Shown piece after piece: positions 7,347 through 13,358 of a stretch of DNA of 20,480 nt. The stretch is from a virus, in IMG/VR virus record IMGVR_UViG_3300025508_000197, positions 1 to 20,480 of that record. One strand, given 5' to 3'. Position 1 is the stretch's first letter; the number at the start of each line of letters is the position of its first letter. Position numbers and translations under genes: made by a program. The notes beneath the pieces were generated by a model that did no database searches, was not told where the DNA came from, and saw only the letters and a program-made list of their open reading frames with translations.

Positions 7347-7529
7347 TTAATTGTTAAAATTGTTAGTATAAGATTCTCCAAAATTGCTAAACACTTTTAA
7401 TAGAGTGTTGTGATTTTCAATGGCCACTGAATTAATAGGGTTTTGTAAAACTTGGTTATTATCATAAAGAGTTTTAACGTTCTTTATGTTACCGTTTTTT
7501 TTGTAAGTAATCGTAGTTTCTGTATTCAT
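7347..7529 (-). CDS. Hypothetical protein, 60 aa
   Basis: This is an Asn-rich polar protein with no recognisable motif. It is the first gene downstream of the promoter at 7549-7581 and 2 bases upstream of the next gene. Confidence 0.5.
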   Translation of the reverse strand: MNTETTITYKKNGNIKNVKTLYDNNQVLQNPINSVAIENHNTLLKVFSNFGESYTNNFNN

Positions 7530-7548
7530 TTTATTGTTTTTAGTTAAG

Positions 7549-7581
7549 CAAATATAGTTTATTATATATATACCAACCTAA
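7549..7581 (-). promoter_or_regulatory. Promoter, minus strand
   Basis: On the minus strand, TTAGGTTGG (7573-7581), a 16-base AT spacer and TATATTTG (7549-7556) fit the Bacteroidota consensus. It lies 20 bases upstream of the ATG at 7529 and closely matches the promoter at 5843-5875. Confidence 0.65.
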
Positions 7582-7586
7582 TTTAA

Positions 7587-7736
7587 TTAAACATTTCTTA
7601 AATTATATTTCTCAATTATAATGTTTATACTTTTTTTGCTTGTTGTATTTTTTAGTTTTAAATAATCAGAAGATAAAATTATTTCTCCTTTGTCCTTTAA
7701 TTGGTTTAATTTCTGTATTGCTAATTTTTGGTTCAT
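7587..7736 (-). CDS. Small basic protein, 49 aa
   Basis: An ATG at 7736 opens a 49-codon frame ending at TAA 7587-7589. It is Lys-rich with two amphipathic helices (NQKLAIQKLNQLKDKG and SINIIIEKYNL), possibly a small DNA-binding protein, although no helix-turn-helix is certain. It starts one base after the previous ORF's stop. Confidence 0.5.
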   Translation of the reverse strand: MNQKLAIQKLNQLKDKGEIILSSDYLKLKNTTSKKSINIIIEKYNLRNV

Positions 7737-7737
7737 G

Positions 7738-7881
7738 TTAATGGTTGTCTTTAATTATTAATGATTCTAAGTATTTGTTAAAACTGCGTTTGTTGCCGTA
7801 TAATTTAATCGAATTATCTACACCAATTTTGTGTATAGATTTATTAAATGATACCAGTGATTTGAATTTGTGTTCGCTCAT
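7738..7881 (-). CDS. Small basic protein, 47 aa
   Basis: An ATG at 7881 opens a 47-codon frame ending at TAA 7738-7740. It is basic (11 Lys/Arg) with a central IKLYGNKRSFNKYLESLII segment. As the first gene after the leftward promoter at 7910-7941 it is a candidate early regulator, but no family is recognised. Confidence 0.5.
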   Translation of the reverse strand: MSEHKFKSLVSFNKSIHKIGVDNSIKLYGNKRSFNKYLESLIIKDNH

Positions 7882-7909
7882 TATTATATGTTTATAAATT
7901 AATATTACG

Positions 7910-7941
7910 CAAATATATATAAAAATTAATTAACTAGCAAA
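7910..7941 (-). promoter_or_regulatory. Leftward promoter of the early operon
   Basis: On the minus strand, TTTG (7938-7941), 20 bases and TATATTTG (7910-7917) match the Bacteroidota consensus exactly in sequence and spacing. It drives the small ORFs at 7881 and below. It is divergent from the rightward promoter that ends at 7992. Confidence 0.7.
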
Positions 7942-7960
7942 TAAAATATATATAAAAAAG

Positions 7961-7992
7961 TTTTTTTATATGAATATGTTTTTGTAAATTTG
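7961..7992 (+). promoter_or_regulatory. Rightward promoter into the cassette array
   Basis: TAAATTTG (7985-7992) is a good -7 box; the -33 region 20 bases upstream is a T-run (7961-7967). The -7 box overlaps the first attC-like left arm (TTTGCTTAAC, 7989-7998), so transcription would start at the very beginning of the array, as the Pc promoter does in integrons. Confidence 0.55.
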
Positions 7993-8144
7993 CTTAACGG
8001 GATTGTGTAACAGATTTAGCGAATAAAAAAACAAAATGAGTAAAGAAGCAGAAGAATTTTTTAGACAAAAGACAATAGAAAATAAATAAACAATAACCTT
8101 TAACGTTAGACATAGCAAGTATTAATTTTGTACGTTGTTATGCC
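7989..8144 (+). repeat. attC-like site 1
   Basis: The left arm is TTTGCTTAAC (7989-7998) followed by GGGATTGTGTAAC. The right arm is TTTTGTAC-GTT (8126-8136), then unit start GTTATGCC (8137-8144). The loop holds a 17-codon ORF and a second, degenerate left arm TTTAACGTTAGACATAGC at 8100-8116. GTTATGCC is exactly complementary to GGCATAAC at 12083-12090, not to the next left arm. Confidence 0.45.
8036..8089 (+). CDS. Possible leader peptide, 17 aa
   Basis: This is the first ATG after the rightward promoter. It encodes a 17-residue, Glu/Lys-rich peptide ending in TAA at 8087-8089. It may be a leader peptide or a cut-down cassette gene; there is no independent support beyond position. Confidence 0.25.
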   Translation: MSKEAEEFFRQKTIENK

Positions 8145-8153
8145 AAGTAAATT

Positions 8154-8324
8154 ATGACAACAAATGATTTTATAAAAAAGCTACAAAGTATTAGTAAGGA
8201 CAAACGTAAGTTGCCTTTAAAAATAACTTGCCCTAATGGATTAGAAGTTGAACCAAAAATAAAGATGGGAACTGATGATGAAACTATATTTGGCAACGTT
8301 ATAAAAATGTATATAACTTATTAA
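8154..8324 (+). CDS. Hypothetical cassette protein, 56 aa
   Basis: An ATG at 8154, 17 bases after the unit start GTTATGCC, opens a 56-codon frame ending 6 bases before the next left arm (8331). The first half is basic (KKLQSISKDKRKLPLKITC) and the second acidic. No family recognised. The tight fit between two array boundaries supports it as cassette cargo. Confidence 0.5.
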   Translation: MTTNDFIKKLQSISKDKRKLPLKITCPNGLEVEPKIKMGTDDETIFGNVIKMYITY

Positions 8325-8330
8325 TTTATT

Positions 8331-8399
8331 TTTTACAACGTATTGTATAAGGTTAAGCGATAGCGACCCGCAGGGTTAACTTTATACGTTGTTATTATT
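8331..8399 (+). repeat. attC-like site 2 (compact)
   Basis: TTTTACAAC (8331-8339), then L'' GTATAAGGTTAA (8345-8356), a 19-base loop, L' TTAACTTTATAC (8376-8387), GTT, and unit start GTTATTATT (8391-8399). L''/L' pair over 12 bases with one G-T pair. At 69 bases this is the size of a classical attC site and gives the clearest fold. Confidence 0.65.
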
Positions 8400-8431
8400 A
8401 GTGCGAATTAATTAACTAAAATTATATTAAG

Positions 8432-8695
8432 ATGACAGATAAAGAAGTATTTGAAAAGTTTATGGGGTGGATGGGTATGAAAGTATCTAAAGCTAAAGAT
8501 ATTGATAAGCAAATAGCAGTTGAGTATGACGATACATATAACTGCGATGTTAGATTTACAAAATGTGGATACGATGAATTTTATGCGGGAGCGATATTTG
8601 ACGAAAACGGAAAAATGGTAAAGGCTTATGTTGATAGCCACGTTGCTTATACTTCTGATAATTGCGTTATAATTAATGAAATACTAAAAGACTAG
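8432..8695 (+). CDS. Hypothetical cassette protein, 87 aa
   Basis: This is an acidic soluble protein with a helical start (TDKEVFEKFMGWMGMKV) and a beta-rich middle (DVRFTKCGYDEFYAGAIFDENGKMVKAYV). I cannot name a family. It is the single gene of the unit 8391-8708, whose ends GTTATTATT and AATTATAAC are complementary with one mismatch. The ATG is preceded by an AT-rich leader of about 40 bases, as in the other cassettes. Confidence 0.65.
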   Translation: MTDKEVFEKFMGWMGMKVSKAKDIDKQIAVEYDDTYNCDVRFTKCGYDEFYAGAIFDENGKMVKAYVDSHVAYTSDNCVIINEILKD

Positions 8696-8699
8696 CATT

Positions 8700-8935
8700 A
8701 ATTATAACGTATTTGTGTATGCCATGTTGCTGATTAATAACTAAAACTTATAAAAATGATAGTAGTAATAAATTTTTTGATTAAAATAGTAACAAGTATT
8801 CTATGCATGTTGATGTTCTGGCTTAACTTAATTATAGTTATAATAATGTGGGACGGAAAATTTATGGTGGTATTTAAACTACTTGATTTAATATGGGACA
8901 AACCTAAGCAATGTGATATACACGTTGTTGTGAAA
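8700..8935 (+). repeat. attC-like site 3 (large loop)
   Basis: The left arm is AATTATAAC (8700-8708) with GTATTT-GTGTATGCC; the right arm is TATACAC-GTT (8918-8926), then unit start GTTGTGAAA (8927-8935). The 200-base loop contains the start of the ORF at 8756, which reads on through the junction. Confidence 0.5.
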
Positions 8936-9034
8936 TCGTTTTATTGCAATTGTGATAGTCCAGATATTACTTGGTACGGAAATGAATTTGATAAAAAATA
9001 CTTTTGCTTTAATTGTAAAAAAGAAGTAAACTAA
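8756..9034 (+). CDS. Membrane-anchored zinc-ribbon-like protein spanning a junction
   Basis: The 92-residue frame has two hydrophobic segments (about residues 3-20 and 22-33) and a hydrophobic stretch to about 47. A C-terminal part follows with CNC (residues 65-67) and CFNC (84-87), probably a zinc ribbon. The attC-like junction GTTGTGAAA falls at residue 58, so the membrane part and the Cys part belong to different units. The junction itself is translated as KQCDIHVVV, nearly the same as KQCVLHVV in the next ORF. It may be a fusion made by cassette joining, or the segment may be a normal part of a conserved gene family. The stop lies just before the next left arm. Confidence 0.5.
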   Translation: MIVVINFLIKIVTSILCMLMFWLNLIIVIIMWDGKFMVVFKLLDLIWDKPKQCDIHVVVKSFYCNCDSPDITWYGNEFDKKYFCFNCKKEVN

Positions 9035-9089
9035 TGTTTTACAACGTAATATTGTAAGGAAAGTTGAGGATAGATTAAAACAAAAATAA
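9032..9089 (+). repeat. 58-bp direct repeat, copy 1
   Basis: From the stop codon of the ORF at 8756-9034 onward, about 55 bases match 11760-11817 with only two or three differences. The repeat includes the left arm TTTTACAAC and the leader up to the next start codon. The genes before and after the two copies differ. Confidence 0.75.
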
Positions 9090-9169
9090 ATAAAGATATG
9101 AATTTGATTAAACGATTATTTCGTAAAAAAGAAAATAAAAAACAATGTGTTTTACACGTTGTTAGAACA
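9037..9169 (+). repeat. attC-like site 4
   Basis: The left arm is TTTTACAAC (9037-9045), followed by GTAATATTGTAAGG; the right arm is TTTTACAC-GTT (9150-9160), then unit start GTTAGAACA (9161-9169). TTTTACAAC is complementary, apart from one G-T, to the start GTTGTGAAA of its own unit at 8927. The loop holds the start of the ORF at 9098. Confidence 0.5.
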
Positions 9170-9322
9170 CGGTTATTATGTTTAGATAAATACACAATTT
9201 GGTGTGATTTAACTATTGGAAGTGAATATCAATTAGTAAGCCAAGATGAAATAGATTATACAGTAATTAATGATATTGGGGAAAAATGCAAATATGGAAA
9301 ACACCTTTTTAAGATAATTTAA
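9098..9322 (+). CDS. Small SH3-like protein spanning a junction, 74 aa
   Basis: The N-terminal 20 residues are strongly basic (NLIKRLFRKKENKKQC). They are followed by a beta-rich part with LTIGSEYQLVSQDEIDYTVINDIGEKCKYGKHLFKII. The latter resembles small SH3-like phage proteins (L..G..Y.V..ed...y.I.ND.Ge...Y....F). The junction at 9161 cuts between residues 21 and 22, so the basic tail comes from the preceding unit's loop and the SH3-like part from the unit 9161-9339. The SH3-like half alone is the usual size of that family, which suggests the N-terminal tail was added by read-through. Confidence 0.55.
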   Translation: MNLIKRLFRKKENKKQCVLHVVRTRLLCLDKYTIWCDLTIGSEYQLVSQDEIDYTVINDIGEKCKYGKHLFKII

Positions 9323-9374
9323 CAATAATTTTCTCTAACTTAATTGGATATGAAATGTTAAAGTTTTAAAATTA

Positions 9375-9406
9375 TTTGGTTTATAAATAATTTATATATA
9401 CATTTG
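9375..9406 (+). promoter_or_regulatory. Internal promoter of the array
   Basis: TTTG (9375-9378), exactly 20 bases, then TACATTTG (9399-9406) is a textbook Bacteroidota promoter. It is placed 24 bases before the ATG at 9430. The spacer closely resembles that of the promoter at 10603-10634. Confidence 0.75.
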
Positions 9407-9429
9407 TTAAAGAATTAAAAAATATAATT

Positions 9430-9627
9430 ATGGAAACTGCAATAAAAAATCAAATAAAGAAAATAGTAAAAAGAAATGGAGCACATTTTGGGGTTGTAAA
9501 AAATATAATTACAAGTAATAATCCCGATGTTGATTTTGGTCTATATACTGAATATGTTAATGGTTTATTTAATAAAAAATTTAGCAATGTGCAAACAAGT
9601 ATTCGTAAAAATATAAGATTTCAATAA
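9430..9627 (+). CDS. Hypothetical cassette protein, 65 aa
   Basis: This is a basic protein (pI clearly high) with an N-terminal Lys-rich helix (ETAIKNQIKKIVKRNGAHFGVVKNII) and a second helix near YTEYVNGLFNKKFSNVQTSIRKNI. Family not recognised; a nucleic-acid-binding role is possible but unproven. It lies inside the loop of attC-like site 5 and has its own promoter. Confidence 0.6.
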   Translation: METAIKNQIKKIVKRNGAHFGVVKNIITSNNPDVDFGLYTEYVNGLFNKKFSNVQTSIRKNIRFQ

Positions 9628-9650
9628 CCTTATTATTACTTATGCACATT

Positions 9651-10560
9651 GTTACCTGTAGTTTTTTAAAAAAGGGCATTGCTGACGTTAGGAAGCAAAA
9701 TTAAACACAAAGATATGAAAAAAGCAAAGAATAATATAACTAATTGGTTAGATAAAAATGGAACTAAAGAAATGAAGGAACAAATAGAAAAAGAATTATT
9801 TTATAATAAAATATTTAATGAGAATTGCCTTGATACAATGGCAAAAATGCCTGATAACTTTATTGATTTAACAGTTACATCCCCTCCTTATGATAATTTA
9901 AGAACATATAAAGGTTATAGTTTTGATTTTGAAAGCATAGCAAAAGAATTATTTAGAGTAACCAAAGAAGGTGGTGTAGTTGTTTGGGTAGTTGGTGATG
10001 CAACTGTAAAAGGAAGTGAAAGTGGAACAAGTTTTAGACAAGCATTATATTTTATGGAATGTGGCTTTAAATTGCACGATACTATGATATTCAAGAGTGC
10101 TAAACCACCATTAACACATAAACGCTATGAGCAAGAATTTGAATATATGTTTGTATTTGTAAAAGGTAAAATAAACACTTTTAATGGTATAAAAAGAAAA
10201 GCAAAAACAGAAGGTGGTAGTAGTGGTAGTTTTATGCACAAAAATAACGCTAAATTTAAAAAAGCAAATACAATAAAAAAGACACCTAAAGAAGTTTTAA
10301 GGGGTAATATATTTGAATATAAAACAGGTTATACAAGAAACGGACACCCAGCGGTTTTTCCAGAACAATTAGCAAACGACCATATAATTAGTTGGAGTAA
10401 TGAAGGTGATATTGTTTACGACCCTTTTATGGGAAGTGGAACAACTGCAAAAATGGCAAAAATAAACAACCGTAATTGGATAGGTAGTGAAATTTCAAAA
10501 GAGTACTGCGATATCATTTCCGCAAGAGTGAGTGCCCTTTTTTAACAAATTACAGGTAAC
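9651..10560 (+). mobile_element. Methyltransferase cassette with exact end complementarity
   Basis: The unit starts with GTTACCTGT (9651-9659) and ends with ACAGGTAAC (10552-10560), a perfect 9-base inverted pair 910 bases apart, with one gene between. In integron terms the start supplies R' and the end R'' of the cassette's own attC site once circularised. It is the strongest single case in the array. Confidence 0.65.
9715..10545 (+). CDS. DNA methyltransferase, beta class (probably N4-cytosine)
   Basis: From the ATG at 9715 the protein has 276 residues; an upstream in-frame TTG at 9679 would add 12 residues but falls in a leader shared with the other cassette methyltransferase. Catalytic motif IV is TSPPY (residues 55-59), which favours N4-cytosine over N6-adenine methylation. 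The SAM-binding motif I DPFMGSGTT is at 236-244; order IV then I is beta class. The segment between (about 140-205) is basic and should hold the target-recognition region. No endonuclease gene is next to it. It is the only gene of the perfect-ended unit 9651-10560. Likely use: protection of phage DNA from host restriction. Confidence 0.88.
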   Translation: MKKAKNNITNWLDKNGTKEMKEQIEKELFYNKIFNENCLDTMAKMPDNFIDLTVTSPPYDNLRTYKGYSFDFESIAKELFRVTKEGGVVVWVVGDATVKGSESGTSFRQALYFMECGFKLHDTMIFKSAKPPLTHKRYEQEFEYMFVFVKGKINTFNGIKRKAKTEGGSSGSFMHKNNAKFKKANTIKKTPKEVLRGNIFEYKTGYTRNGHPAVFPEQLANDHIISWSNEGDIVYDPFMGSGTTAKMAKINNRNWIGSEISKEYCDIISARVSALF

Positions 10561-10688
10561 GTACTTGTATAAGGTTTGTAGTGAAATAAATATGTAAAAA
10601 TATTTGGTTAAGAAATAAATTATATATAAATTTACAGAAAATTAATATTAACAATAAGTAACTATAAACTTTATACGTTGTTGGTTAC
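10552..10688 (+). repeat. attC-like site 6 (16-bp stem, promoter in loop)
   Basis: ACAGGTAAC (10552-10560), spacer GTACTT, L'' GTATAAGGTTTGTAGT (10567-10582), a 78-base loop, L' ACTATAAACTTTATAC (10661-10676), GTT, and unit start GTTGGTTAC (10680-10688). The L arms pair over all 16 positions (14 Watson-Crick, 2 G-T). The loop has a promoter and no ORF. Confidence 0.7.
10603..10634 (+). promoter_or_regulatory. Internal promoter in the loop of site 6
   Basis: TTTG (10603-10606), 20 bases, TAAATTTA (10627-10634) fits the Bacteroidota promoter, and the stretch ATTTGGTT...TTATATATA is shared with the promoter at 9375-9406. It would start transcription about 70 bases before the ATG at 10718. Confidence 0.65.
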
Positions 10689-10717
10689 TGTTTAACGAAT
10701 AAACAAACAAATAAATT

Positions 10718-10840
10718 ATGAAAAAACAGAAAAGACCTAAAACAACCACAAGTATGAAAAGCGGTGGAATAGATAACAATACGCTCTTAATTGTGATAGT
10801 AATTTGGTTAATAACTCTATTAGCTATAACAAATAGTTAA
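10718..10840 (+). CDS. Small single-span membrane protein, 40 aa
   Basis: An ATG at 10718 opens a 40-codon frame ending in TAA at 10838-10840, just before the left arm at 10845. The first 20 residues are basic and polar, then residues 23-38 form one transmembrane segment (LLIVIVIWLITLLAI). The Lys-rich side would stay in the cytoplasm. It is the only frame in the unit 10680-10852, whose ends GTTGGT and ACCAAC are complementary. Function unknown. Confidence 0.55.
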   Translation: MKKQKRPKTTTSMKSGGIDNNTLLIVIVIWLITLLAITNS

Positions 10841-10844
10841 ATTG

Positions 10845-11144
10845 TTACCAACGGATTGTGTATGAGTAGTAAATAAAACGGAATAATTAAAACTAAATAT
10901 TATGAGTAACGAAAAATTATATTGGACAATGAAAAATGGCGATAAAATAGACGTTGACCAAATGACAGAAAGCCATTTAAGAAACACTTTGAAATTAATA
11001 ATAAGACGAAGCCAACAAGTGCAAACTACTTGCCCTAACAATATTGAGGATGCGATGGATATGGCTAATTATGACGATACGCCATTTTGTGATGATTGGA
11101 TGTGGAAGTAGTTTTATTTATTACTTATACACGTTGTTGTGGTG
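10845..11144 (+). repeat. attC-like site 7 (large loop with gene)
   Basis: The left arm is TTACCAAC (10845-10852) with GGATT-GTGTATGAG; the right arm is CTTATACAC-GTT (11124-11135), then unit start GTTGTGGTG (11136-11144). The loop contains the ORF at 10902-11111. Confidence 0.5.
10902..11111 (+). CDS. Small phage-type protein, 69 aa
   Basis: The sequence LYWTMKNGDKIDVDQMTESHLRNTLKLIIRRSQ resembles a small protein widespread in phages (W...G..i.i.dM...HL.N....I.R), followed by an acidic, Asp-rich tail ending in DDWMWK. No biochemical function is known to me. It sits wholly inside the loop of attC-like site 7. Confidence 0.65.
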   Translation: MSNEKLYWTMKNGDKIDVDQMTESHLRNTLKLIIRRSQQVQTTCPNNIEDAMDMANYDDTPFCDDWMWK

Positions 11145-11164
11145 TCGTTTTAATGCACTACAAC
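11136..11164 (+). repeat. Gene-less mini unit 1
   Basis: GTTGTGGTG-T-CGTTTTAATG-CACTACAAC (11136-11164): a 9-base stem (one mismatch or G-T) around the loop CGTTTTAATG, with no gene. It has the start and end signals of a cassette only. The same loop is in the next hairpin (11180-11189) and in mini unit 2 (13090-13099). Confidence 0.7.
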
Positions 11165-11211
11165 GGTTTGTATAAGGTGCGTTTTAATGCACTTTATACG
11201 TTGTTATATTT
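11156..11211 (+). repeat. attC-like site 8 (compact)
   Basis: CACTACAAC (11156-11164), GGTTT, L'' GTATAAGGTGC (11170-11180), loop GTTTTAAT, L' GCACTTTATAC (11189-11199), GTT, and unit start GTTATATTT (11203-11211). The L arms pair over 11 bases with one G-T. At 56 bases it is the shortest full site and a good reference for the family. Confidence 0.7.
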
Positions 11212-11241
11212 TAGTTATGAACGATTAAAAAACGATAAATT

Positions 11242-11475
11242 ATGAGTACACACATAGAAACATTAAAAGGAATAAAAGAATCAGGATTAAACACAGAAAG
11301 AATTGAAACAACTATGAGTCTAACAAGGTTTTGGGGAGGTGCTGAAAAGGGTAGAATGTTACAATTAACAGTAAGTAACTCTGATGGCTACATACAATTA
11401 ACAGAACAAGAAACTATTGAGTTAGCAAAGACCTTGCTTAATTCTTTTGATGATACGATATACCCAAGTGAATAA
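11242..11475 (+). CDS. Hypothetical cassette protein, 77 aa
   Basis: The protein has a beta-rich middle (TTMSLTRFWGGAEKGRMLQLTVSNSDGYIQLT) followed by a helix (EQETIELAKTLLNSF). This pattern is seen in small phage proteins of unknown role. It is the single gene of the unit 11203-11486, whose ends GTTATATTT and AAATATAAC are perfectly complementary. Confidence 0.65.
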   Translation: MSTHIETLKGIKESGLNTERIETTMSLTRFWGGAEKGRMLQLTVSNSDGYIQLTEQETIELAKTLLNSFDDTIYPSE

Positions 11476-11477
11476 TT

Positions 11478-11679
11478 AAATATAACTTATTTGTGTATGA
11501 TTAGTAGCGTATAAATAAAAACAACTTAAATAAATAAACGATGAAAAAAGCAGAAAAAATATTAGAAAAGCACATAGTTTTAAATGATTGTATAGGTTAT
11601 CTTGGAAGAGATGGAAGATTATACAAAGCCATTATAGATGCGATGGAAGAAGCTATTAATTATACACGTTGTTGTGAAA
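11478..11679 (+). repeat. attC-like site 9 (large loop)
   Basis: The left arm is AAATATAAC (11478-11486) with TTATTT-GTGTATGA; the right arm is ATTATACAC-GTT (11658-11670), then unit start GTTGTGAAA (11671-11679). The ORF at 11541 starts in the loop and reads through the junction. Confidence 0.5.
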
Positions 11680-11762
11680 CGTTACCTTGTAATTATGCGG
11701 AAGGTTATAATGATGCAATAGCCAAAATAAAAGAAGAAGCCAAGTACATAGAAAAGCAATAA
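11541..11762 (+). CDS. Small helical phage-type protein spanning a junction, 73 aa
   Basis: The first half (KKAEKILEKHIVLN ... YKAIIDAMEEAINYTR) is helical and looks like a small protein common in Bacteroidota phages. The second half (CCETLPCNYAEGYNDAIAKIKEE) is a Cys-containing turn and a further helix. The junction GTTGTGAAA at 11671 falls at about residue 44. The stop codon is directly followed by the 58-bp direct repeat (copy 2). As in the other two cases, either the C-terminus was replaced by cassette joining or the right arm evolved into coding sequence. Confidence 0.55.
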   Translation: MKKAEKILEKHIVLNDCIGYLGRDGRLYKAIIDAMEEAINYTRCCETLPCNYAEGYNDAIAKIKEEAKYIEKQ

Positions 11763-11817
11763 TGTTTTACAACGTAATATTGTAAGGAAAGTTGAGGGTA
11801 GATTAAAACAAAAACAA
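11760..11817 (+). repeat. 58-bp direct repeat, copy 2, with attC-like left arm 10
   Basis: It nearly duplicates 9032-9089 and contains the left arm TTTTACAAC (11765-11773), complementary (one G-T) to its unit start GTTGTGAAA at 11671. No matching right arm follows before the next left arm at 12083, so one boundary is missing or degenerate here. Confidence 0.7.
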
Positions 11818-11823
11818 ATAAAA

Positions 11824-12078
11824 ATGGACGAAATAAAATATCTAAAAGATACTAAAGTAGAAATTACTGCTAGGAGAATAGACAATGATGTTTACATACA
11901 CCAAGCAAGTGTAATAGAGTTGTTAAAAGACTATAAGCAACAATTTTCTTTACAAGGTGTTAGCCAACAACGTGAACTGTTAGTTGGTTTTATTAATTGG
12001 CACGATAAAACTCTTGGCGTTGATGCAGATAAAGAATCAAATACCTTATTTGTTAATGAATACCTAAAAACCAATTAA
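11824..12078 (+). CDS. Small phage-type protein, 84 aa
   Basis: The protein contains VSQQRELLVGFINWHDKTLGVDADKESNTLFVNEYLK. The QRELL..F..W......d....d.fl pattern is common in small proteins of Bacteroidota phages and elements. The N-terminus is beta-prone (KVEITARRIDNDVYIHQASVIELLKDY). The function is not known to me. It starts right after the direct repeat copy 2 and ends 4 bases before GGCATAAC (12083). Confidence 0.65.
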   Translation: MDEIKYLKDTKVEITARRIDNDVYIHQASVIELLKDYKQQFSLQGVSQQRELLVGFINWHDKTLGVDADKESNTLFVNEYLKTN

Positions 12079-12082
12079 TTGT

Positions 12083-13088
12083 GGCATAACGTACTTGTGT
12101 ATGGTGTGTAGCATTGATAAGCAGAAAGTTTGAGTTAAGAAACAAAGTAATAATTATAATTTTTTCGAGCGTTGGCAAATTGCTGACGATAGGAAGCAAA
12201 ACAGAGAATAAATGATATTAAGAAGACAAGGTAATAAGCAAAAGTTAGCAAAGTTAATAGTGCCAATGATGCCACCACATAAGATTTATATTGAGCCGTT
12301 TTTTGGTGCTGGTGGTATGTTTTTTAATAAACCAAAAGTAAAACACAATATAGTTAATGACCTTGATGACGATGTTTTTAACTTATTTCAAATAGTTATT
12401 AAAAGCAGTAAAGAATTAGAAGATGGTTTTTATAAAATGCCAACACATAGCAGTCTTTTAGATTATTGGAAAACTAACAAAGAAGATGACCCTATACAAA
12501 AGGCTTTAAGATTTTTATTATTAAGTAATATGACTTTTATGGGTGCTGGCGCTTCTATACAAGGTGGAACAGGAAACACAAAAGAAGCATTTTACAAAAA
12601 CATAGATAAGACTTATGAAATGATAAACGATGTGAAGTTTTTTAATTGTGATGCTGTTACTTTTTTAAGTAAAAAGGTTGCTTTTGGGGAATCTGCACCT
12701 GTGAAAGACTGCTTTATATATTGCGACCCTCCATATTTAGGAACTGGCGACAATTACTCTGATAGTTATACTGAAGATATGAGTGCAGAATTATTTGATT
12801 GTTTAGTTAGTATTGGTTGTAAGTTTGCTTTAAGTGAGTTTGACCATCCATTTATAATTGAACAAGCGACAAAGCACGGACTTAATATAATTTATGTAGG
12901 TGAGCGTACAAACTTAAAAAATAAACGAACAGAGGTGCTTATTACTAATTATGAAGATAGACAAAAAAGCCTTTTTGCGTAAGTTGCTAAAAAAGGGAAG
13001 GAAAAAAAAATATAATTATGGGTAAACAAACACAAACGATTGAGGTTATAACAGACTTTAGCTATACATTATACACGGTGTTAGCAAA
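12083..13088 (+). repeat. attC-like site 11 (arms 1 kb apart)
   Basis: The left arm is GGCATAAC (12083-12090), GTACTT, GTGTATGGTGTG; the right arm is ACATTATACAC-GGT (13066-13079), then GTTAGCAAA (13080-13088). A weak extra start GTTGGCAAA lies at 12171. The methyltransferase gene at 12212 lies between the arms. GGCATAAC is the exact complement of the array's first unit start GTTATGCC. Confidence 0.4.
12212..12982 (+). CDS. Dam-like D12-class DNA adenine methyltransferase
   Basis: The 256-aa protein has the alpha-class order: motif X RRQGNKQKLAKLI (residues 4-16), SAM-binding motif I EPFFGAGGMFF (28-38), then catalytic motif IV DPPYLGT (172-178). This is the D12 class of N6-adenine methyltransferases (Dam, DpnM, M.EcoRV type). 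The usual length is 260-290 residues, so it is complete. No endonuclease neighbour. It lies in the last large segment of the array, preceded by a leader (ATTGCTGACG-TAGGAAGCAAAA) shared with the other cassette methyltransferase. A protective role against host restriction is likely; the target sequence cannot be read from the protein. Confidence 0.9.
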   Translation: MILRRQGNKQKLAKLIVPMMPPHKIYIEPFFGAGGMFFNKPKVKHNIVNDLDDDVFNLFQIVIKSSKELEDGFYKMPTHSSLLDYWKTNKEDDPIQKALRFLLLSNMTFMGAGASIQGGTGNTKEAFYKNIDKTYEMINDVKFFNCDAVTFLSKKVAFGESAPVKDCFIYCDPPYLGTGDNYSDSYTEDMSAELFDCLVSIGCKFALSEFDHPFIIEQATKHGLNIIYVGERTNLKNKRTEVLITNYEDRQKSLFA

Positions 13089-13107
13089 TCGTTTTAATGT
13101 TTGCTAA
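13018..13107 (+). CDS. Possible 29-aa ORF reading into mini unit 2
   Basis: An ATG at 13018 follows an A-rich leader and opens a 29-codon frame that runs through the right arm (as YTLYTVLANRFNVC) and stops at the TAA inside TTTGCTAAC. It may be a cassette gene truncated by the junction or a chance frame. Confidence 0.25.
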   Translation: MGKQTQTIEVITDFSYTLYTVLANRFNVC

Positions 13108-13108
13108 C
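13080..13108 (+). repeat. Gene-less mini unit 2
   Basis: GTTAGCAAA-T-CGTTTTAATG-TTTGCTAAC (13080-13108): a perfect 9-base stem around T plus the same CGTTTTAATG loop as mini unit 1. It is the last boundary of the array; the left arm is not followed by a recognisable L'' segment. Confidence 0.7.
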
Positions 13109-13139
13109 TACCTATAAACAAACAAAATGTATTACAATT

Positions 13140-13358
13140 ATGAGGAAATACACTAAAGTCAAGGTTTTACGAATTTCAAAAGAACAACACAGTACTCTTG
13201 TTAAGATGAAATTACTTAATATTGATGTAGGTAACTTTATAAGAAGTGCTATTAAAGAAAAAATAGATAAAGAACATAGTTATTTAATTGACAAAGAAAA
13301 GCCGTTAGAAGATGAGTTTTCTTTGTCGTTAAAATTAGCTTTACTTAAACTTGAATAA
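13140..13358 (+). CDS. Ribbon-helix-helix-like DNA-binding protein, 72 aa
   Basis: The ATG at 13140 is preferred over the in-frame ATG at 13101, which lies inside the TTTGCTAAC arm. The protein starts with a basic strand KVKVLRISKEQHSTLVKMK followed by NIDVGNFIRSAIKEKI. This is the strand-helix-helix layout of ribbon-helix-helix regulators or relaxosome-type proteins. The C-terminal third is acidic and helical. It could regulate the array or nearby late genes. Its end overlaps the convergent spanin gene by 18 bases, so no terminator separates them. Confidence 0.5.
   Translation: MRKYTKVKVLRISKEQHSTLVKMKLLNIDVGNFIRSAIKEKIDKEHSYLIDKEKPLEDEFSLSLKLALLKLE

Follow-up and report, generated by a model that had tools for sequence, protein, structure and literature searches.

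The stretch of DNA analysed here (the window) is an IMG/VR virus record of 20,480 bases in which genes for a portal, a Sak-type annealing protein and primase/helicase functions are present. It also contains an integron-like array, the parts of which are listed below; a slash after AAC marks the boundary behind its last base.

8105..13108, + strand: integron-like cassette array, about 11 cassettes of small + strand genes with AAC junctions, the last bases of which are 8104, 8339, 8708, 9045, 9339, 10560, 10852, 11164, 11486, 11773, 12090 and 13108
8928..9045, + strand: hairpin with an enlarged loop, GTTGTGAAA-TCGTTTTA...ATG-TTTTACAAC, the loop taking in the 3' end of ORF 8756-9034
9340..10560, + strand: two-ORF cassette, with ORF 9430-9627 between L arms and an N6_N4 DNA methyltransferase at 9715-10545
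10853..11164, + strand: single cassette with a leader, ORF 10902-11111 (69 aa), L' arm 11124-11132 and 3' hairpin 11136-11164
11136..11164, + strand: 3' recombination hairpin ('y-type'), GTTGTGGTG-TCGTTTTAATG-CACTACAAC, the first of two 'empty units' of a first-pass annotation
11165..11486, + strand: the following cassette, with 5' hairpin 11170-11199, ORF 11242-11475 (77 aa) and terminal ATATAAC
11170..11199, + strand: 5' recombination hairpin ('x-type'), GTATAAGGTG-CGTTTTAATG-CACTTTATAC, attC-like, with AAC and GTT outside
12091..13108, + strand: D12-class adenine DNA methyltransferase cassette, with the methyltransferase at 12212-12982 and 3' hairpin 13080-13108
13080..13108, + strand: 3' recombination hairpin, GTTAGCAAA-TCGTTTTAATG-TTTGCTAAC, the second 'empty unit'
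13109..13122, + strand: possible degenerate attI, AAC/TACCTATAAACAAA at the array end, its likeness to the consensus AAC/TATTATATATA judged by eye only

ORF 12212-12982 matches Pfam PF02086 (E 1.6e-21) and ORF 9715-10545 matches PF01555 (E 7.2e-43), the latter gene being flanked by GTTACCTGTA (9651) and TTACAGGTAAC (ending at 10560). A 69-nt segment of the window, 9650-9718, has 98.6% identity to Polaribacter phage P12002L. The methyltransferase cassettes (9650-9718 and about 12166-12212) have a common leader, GCTGACG(A/T)TAGGAAGC, which recurs in P12002L, and the inner stem of AAAAAAGGGCA with TGCCCTTTTTT is also found in the methyltransferase cassette at 9650-9718. Across the array, GTTATGCCA near 8137 (8137-8145) pairs with TGGCATAAC ending at 12090 (12082-12090), as if later insertions had split one cassette or ends had been exchanged. 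The reading frames of three ORFs (8756-9034, 9098-9322 and 11541-11762) continue across the GTT core and into the R-stem loop (for example ...IHVVVKS... and ...YTRCC...), so translation would include the site. No tRNAs were found in the window, and the 20,480-base record gave neither a PF00589 match nor a tblastn match to the recombinase described below; ORF 13140-13358 stands in its place after the possible attI. With 12 AAC junctions and no recombinase gene in the record, the window conforms to the definition of a CALIN.

Hairpins and their common loop

The first-pass annotation had pointed out two 29-nt hairpins with a common loop at 11136-11164 and 13080-13108, and direct reading of the sequence bears this out: the former has a 9-bp stem including one G.T pair and the latter a perfect 9-bp stem. 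The third loop, in the 11170-11199 stem, and the near copy CGTTTTATTG (8937-8946, after GTTGTGAAA) are likewise where it had placed them. It was also right that GTT...AAC hairpins and L-arm hairpins have one default loop in common, and that genes elsewhere fill the equivalent position, whether between GTT/AAC stems or between L arms; genes between L arms are not known from ordinary integrons. Its reading of the hairpins as gene units that happen to be empty was not borne out: each adjoins an ORF, and default-loop hairpins follow a + strand stop codon at a median distance of 33-34 nt. Like attC sites, they are imperfect palindromes with AAC and GTT R boxes plus L boxes. The arrangement occurs in two mirror versions, with the hairpin after the gene or before it. 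Each has a variable inner stem, an outer stem made jointly with the adjacent cassette, and the loop TCGTTTTAATG.

Calculated DNA folding gave z scores of -2.5 for 11136-11164, -2.9 for 11162-11205 and -4.4 for 13080-13108; for the composite 11119-11184, which includes outer arms, z was -3.65, and none of 200 shuffles was as good. Within the window alone the loop word, with one mismatch allowed, was seen 5 times versus 3.5 expected, which is not significant. The search that the first-pass annotation had proposed, for the loop with complementary flanks, found at least 120 IMG/VR matches to GTTN6-TCGTTTTAATG-N6AAC, and all six variable pairs were complementary in 109 of the 123 matches listed, though the stems differ. 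The pattern TAAC...TCGTTTTAATG...GTT also had at least 120 IMG/VR matches, and the same 11-nt loop caps hundreds of IMG/VR hairpins with differing, complementary stems. In 257 Gb of prokaryote genomes, GTTN6-loop-N6AAC was matched 57 times, with six pairs in 17 cases, five in one and four or fewer in 39. Most of these 39 lack the flanking motif and resemble coding sequence matched by chance; a few four-pair matches with TATA-type upstream context (L163, L161, L142) may be real.

In the listed viral loci, 301 of 355 CGTTTTAATG words form hairpin loops, as compared to 1 of 32 control words. The stems covary: across 35 distinct hairpins, 94.3% of cells are paired versus 69.1% after shuffling, and 91 double-change cells were counted versus 28.6 in shuffled sets, with 0 of 500 shuffles doing as well. 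A chance or low-complexity origin of the loop word is ruled out by the genome scans, the control words and this covariation. On contigs found through the recombinase, for which the loop was not used in selection, the same loop was again the commonest. It is not the sole loop on these recombinase-anchored contigs: of 17 distinct GTT/AAC hairpins 7 are capped by TCGTTTTAATG, as are at least 12 of 24 L-arm hairpins.

Cassette boundaries and the linked recombinase

Alignments of related contigs break off abruptly after the final C of AAC, and the AAC of hairpins of the 11136-11164 type is a mosaic end in relatives. An unbiased tally of bases at every alignment end gave limited information, since AAC is also where the conserved cassette leader starts, and the cut cannot be placed inside AAC because all partners have these bases in common.

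A family of tyrosine recombinases was found by clustering the ORFs of the listed array loci, and in most of its 18 loci the gene stands just downstream of the array's last AAC. An attI-like AAC/TATTATATATA is present in 78 of the 79 listed recombinase contigs (67 distinct), the one miss having only 27 nt upstream. In at least 19 contig pairs, attI and the gene are 88-100% identical and the DNA left of AAC is unrelated, identity continuing there for only 4-7 nt; all such contig counts are lower bounds. Recombinase-only contigs contain 72 loop words upstream of the gene on the same strand in 231 kb and 0 on the opposite strand, with 0 downstream in 293 kb. As in an integron, attI lies by the 5' end of the recombinase gene and cassettes are inserted at a fixed base. 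Array genes and recombinase gene share one strand, the array coming first, and the cassette genes point toward attI rather than away from it.

One member of the family scored 172.6 bits with the NCBIfam model XerA (cut-off 220), which ranks before the integron integrase model TIGR02249 (155.5 bits, cut-off 265); all nine members match TIGR02249. About 48 residues present in IntI4 (2a3v), the insert specific to IntI that lies between the catalytic patches, are missing from the phage recombinases, which have ∼33 residues there versus ∼81; in the alignment with the XerA-like 4a8e this gap does not occur. The closest PDB structures are 4a8e and 5hxy, and at the level of sequence comparison the predicted fold can be taken as settled. 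In a tree, 19 of 21 phage recombinases form a clade together with one from a host genome (L403) (96/96), apart from IntI (100/100); two others found beside arrays (L047 and L063) fall outside the main clade. IntI was therefore rejected as the linked enzyme, given the score below the TIGR02249 cut-off, the missing insert and the separate clade.

Freya and Danklef are co-isolated, cultured Polaribacter phages. The base-by-base comparison of the Freya genomes covered the interval between the gene preceding the array and the recombinase gene start; the remainder was judged from gene tables. Freya_1, 2, 5, 8 and 9 correspond to Freya_10 minus exactly 4942, 4100, 3198, 902 or 307 nt of the array; every deletion end is AAC/, and the ends have in common only AAC plus a few chance bases. 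Freya_6 lacks part of the array and carries a different 469-nt cassette at attI, which was absent from the other phage records searched except Freya_7. Danklef_3 and 4 are without exactly one 781-nt adenine-methylase cassette, from AAC/ to AAC/. Whole cassettes are gained or lost between two sites in these isolates. The Danklef recombinase gene is truncated to its C-terminal part (L425, Danklef_5, 7464-7983), so the exact cassette difference may stem from a different enzyme or from an event that came earlier. In the paper describing these phages, the integrase is taken as a hint of a possible temperate lifestyle (PMC8776804), and a word search of its text found neither 'integron' nor 'cassette'. 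The Freya and Danklef enzyme may be a cassette recombinase rather than a sign of temperate lifestyle.

Proposed mechanism and competing explanations

The hairpins are very likely the recombination sites of a phage-borne, integron-like cassette system of Bacteroidota phages. A cassette runs from one AAC/ to the next, and its default-loop form usually comprises one small gene and one TCGTTTTAATG-closed hairpin. The 3' form is L'-GTTN6-loop-N6AAC/ after the gene, and the 5' form /spacer-L''-loop-L'-spacer-GTTN6-gene-N6AAC/. Both are one stem of R and L boxes seen from opposite ends, the loop capping one end and the gene filling the other. The phage tyrosine recombinase, its gene following the attI-like AAC/TATTATATATA downstream of the array, most likely swaps cassettes at AAC/, and by analogy with IntI acting on attC bottom strands the exchange would probably take place on a folded single strand. 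The loop, a trait of many lineages, would perhaps aid hairpin folding or recognition; it is not essential, because no TCGTTTTAATG loop was found in the Freya arrays. Arrays without a recombinase gene, such as that of the window, would be served in trans.

The first-pass annotation had instead proposed that the loops are points where genes are inserted or replaced, CGTTTTAATG being an empty place. Genes do fill a topologically equivalent position, between GTT/AAC stems or L arms, and coding sequence does enlarge the loop in 8928-9045. The annotation's expectation of empty and occupied loops in related strains failed: the 11-nt loop is retained in 375 shared flank pairs, and in the 16 with other spacing the default loop was intact after the left arm wherever the arms matched exactly (one query/subject combination gave no exact arm match). 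In this comparison no ORF was found in place of another contig's default loop. Breakpoints in contigs fall at AAC/, cultured phages change exactly from AAC/ to AAC/, and each hairpin accompanies a neighbouring gene. Insertion at the loop is thus highly improbable; of that interpretation, the shared loop and the equivalent gene position stand, and the empty units and the loop as gene entry point do not. It is very unlikely, too, that the hairpins work at the RNA level, in transcription termination, processing or translational coupling, with the mosaics reflecting homologous recombination at conserved junctions. Such a role would fit hairpins just past stop codons on the coding strand, a loop that includes TAATG, and a phage that encodes a Sak-type annealing protein, but the Freya deletion ends offer little common sequence, the breakpoint is confined to one base position although a break anywhere in the conserved stem and loop would be possible, a recombinase gene stands at the array's fixed end, and an Rfam search gave no match at E 0.1.

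Ordinary integron cassettes (CALINs) moved by a bacterial IntI of the host would account for the attC-like AAC...GTT architecture, and one P12002L site, attC2, is recombined with attI1 by IntI1 in E. coli, the only assay reported for a related phage (PMC9892861). This explanation is unlikely, as the linked recombinase (155 bits to TIGR02249) lacks the ∼48 IntI4 residues and separates from IntI in the tree, the genes run toward attI, and the loop is conserved rather than variable. Three Flavobacteriaceae genomes contained no TIGR02249 match above the cut-off. A broader reading is somewhat more likely than not: Bacteroidota phages, some of hundreds of kilobases, would have an integron class of their own, with a non-IntI tyrosine recombinase, mirror-image cassettes, inverted polarity and an invariant loop, and would use it to trade anti-restriction and other accessory genes.

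Cargo, spread and relation to known systems

DNA methyltransferases are the commonest ORF cluster of the listed array loci (43 loci, e.g. L006 and L083), and clusters of Mom-like and Dcm-like appearance are also frequent near hairpins, so the cassettes look rich in DNA-modification genes. At two loci (L008 and L078) a tRNA-like 3' sequence, ggttcgactcccacctccca, stands at the cassette end just before the hairpin, and some cassettes may carry tRNA genes. Sites 80-89% identical to an L-arm-type query are found in LR756500, LR745206 and LR756504, phage records of 462-636 kb; these are very large uncultured phages with such sites. A 27-nt match (E 0.3) to the site within cas1 of Vibrio phage ICP1 was put down to chance.

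If the proposed system is real, phages would have dedicated, site-specific swapping of single genes, including genes that protect DNA from bacterial defences, and some of the mosaic structure seen in flavobacterial and very large phages would be explained. Freya and Danklef would provide a cultured model in which cassette gain and loss could be watched directly, and the requirements of an integron (attI, folded sites, modular cassettes) would be separated from IntI itself.

CALINs in virulent phages, including Polaribacter phage P12002L, have already been published (Qi et al. 2023, PMC9892861). The part of that paper considered here describes phage clusters without integrase and with divergent site directions, suggests that they may have arisen by illegitimate or homologous recombination, and mentions neither a dedicated phage recombinase nor an attI or a conserved loop. 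P12002L resembles the window in having the same sites, the same TCGTTTTAATG loop and methyltransferase cassettes. No description of a system of recombinase, attI and array was found in the open-access literature searched; within it, the enzyme, the gene polarity, the attI and the invariant loop seem to be new.

In sequence, the closest relatives of the phage recombinase are XerA, XerC and XerD and the chromosomal tyrosine recombinases of Bacteroidota, a relative at E 1e-60 being present in 86 of 296 Bacteroidota genomes. The chromosomal relatives differ in their surroundings: among 20 loci, 16 of them with a readable gene, only L403 has the attI motif upstream, and no loop word was found within about 1.5 kb on each side. 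With the classical integron, the phage system has in common a tyrosine recombinase gene beside a primary site, mostly one-gene modules in an array, a boundary that reads G^TT on the complementary strand, palindromic R and L boxes, and a first cassette that varies at attI while attI and the gene are constant. In classical integrons, cassette genes read away from attI and loops are variable. In the phage system, by contrast, the recombinase is not IntI, the genes point toward attI and may sit between L arms, the loop is invariant, and the whole is borne by phages.
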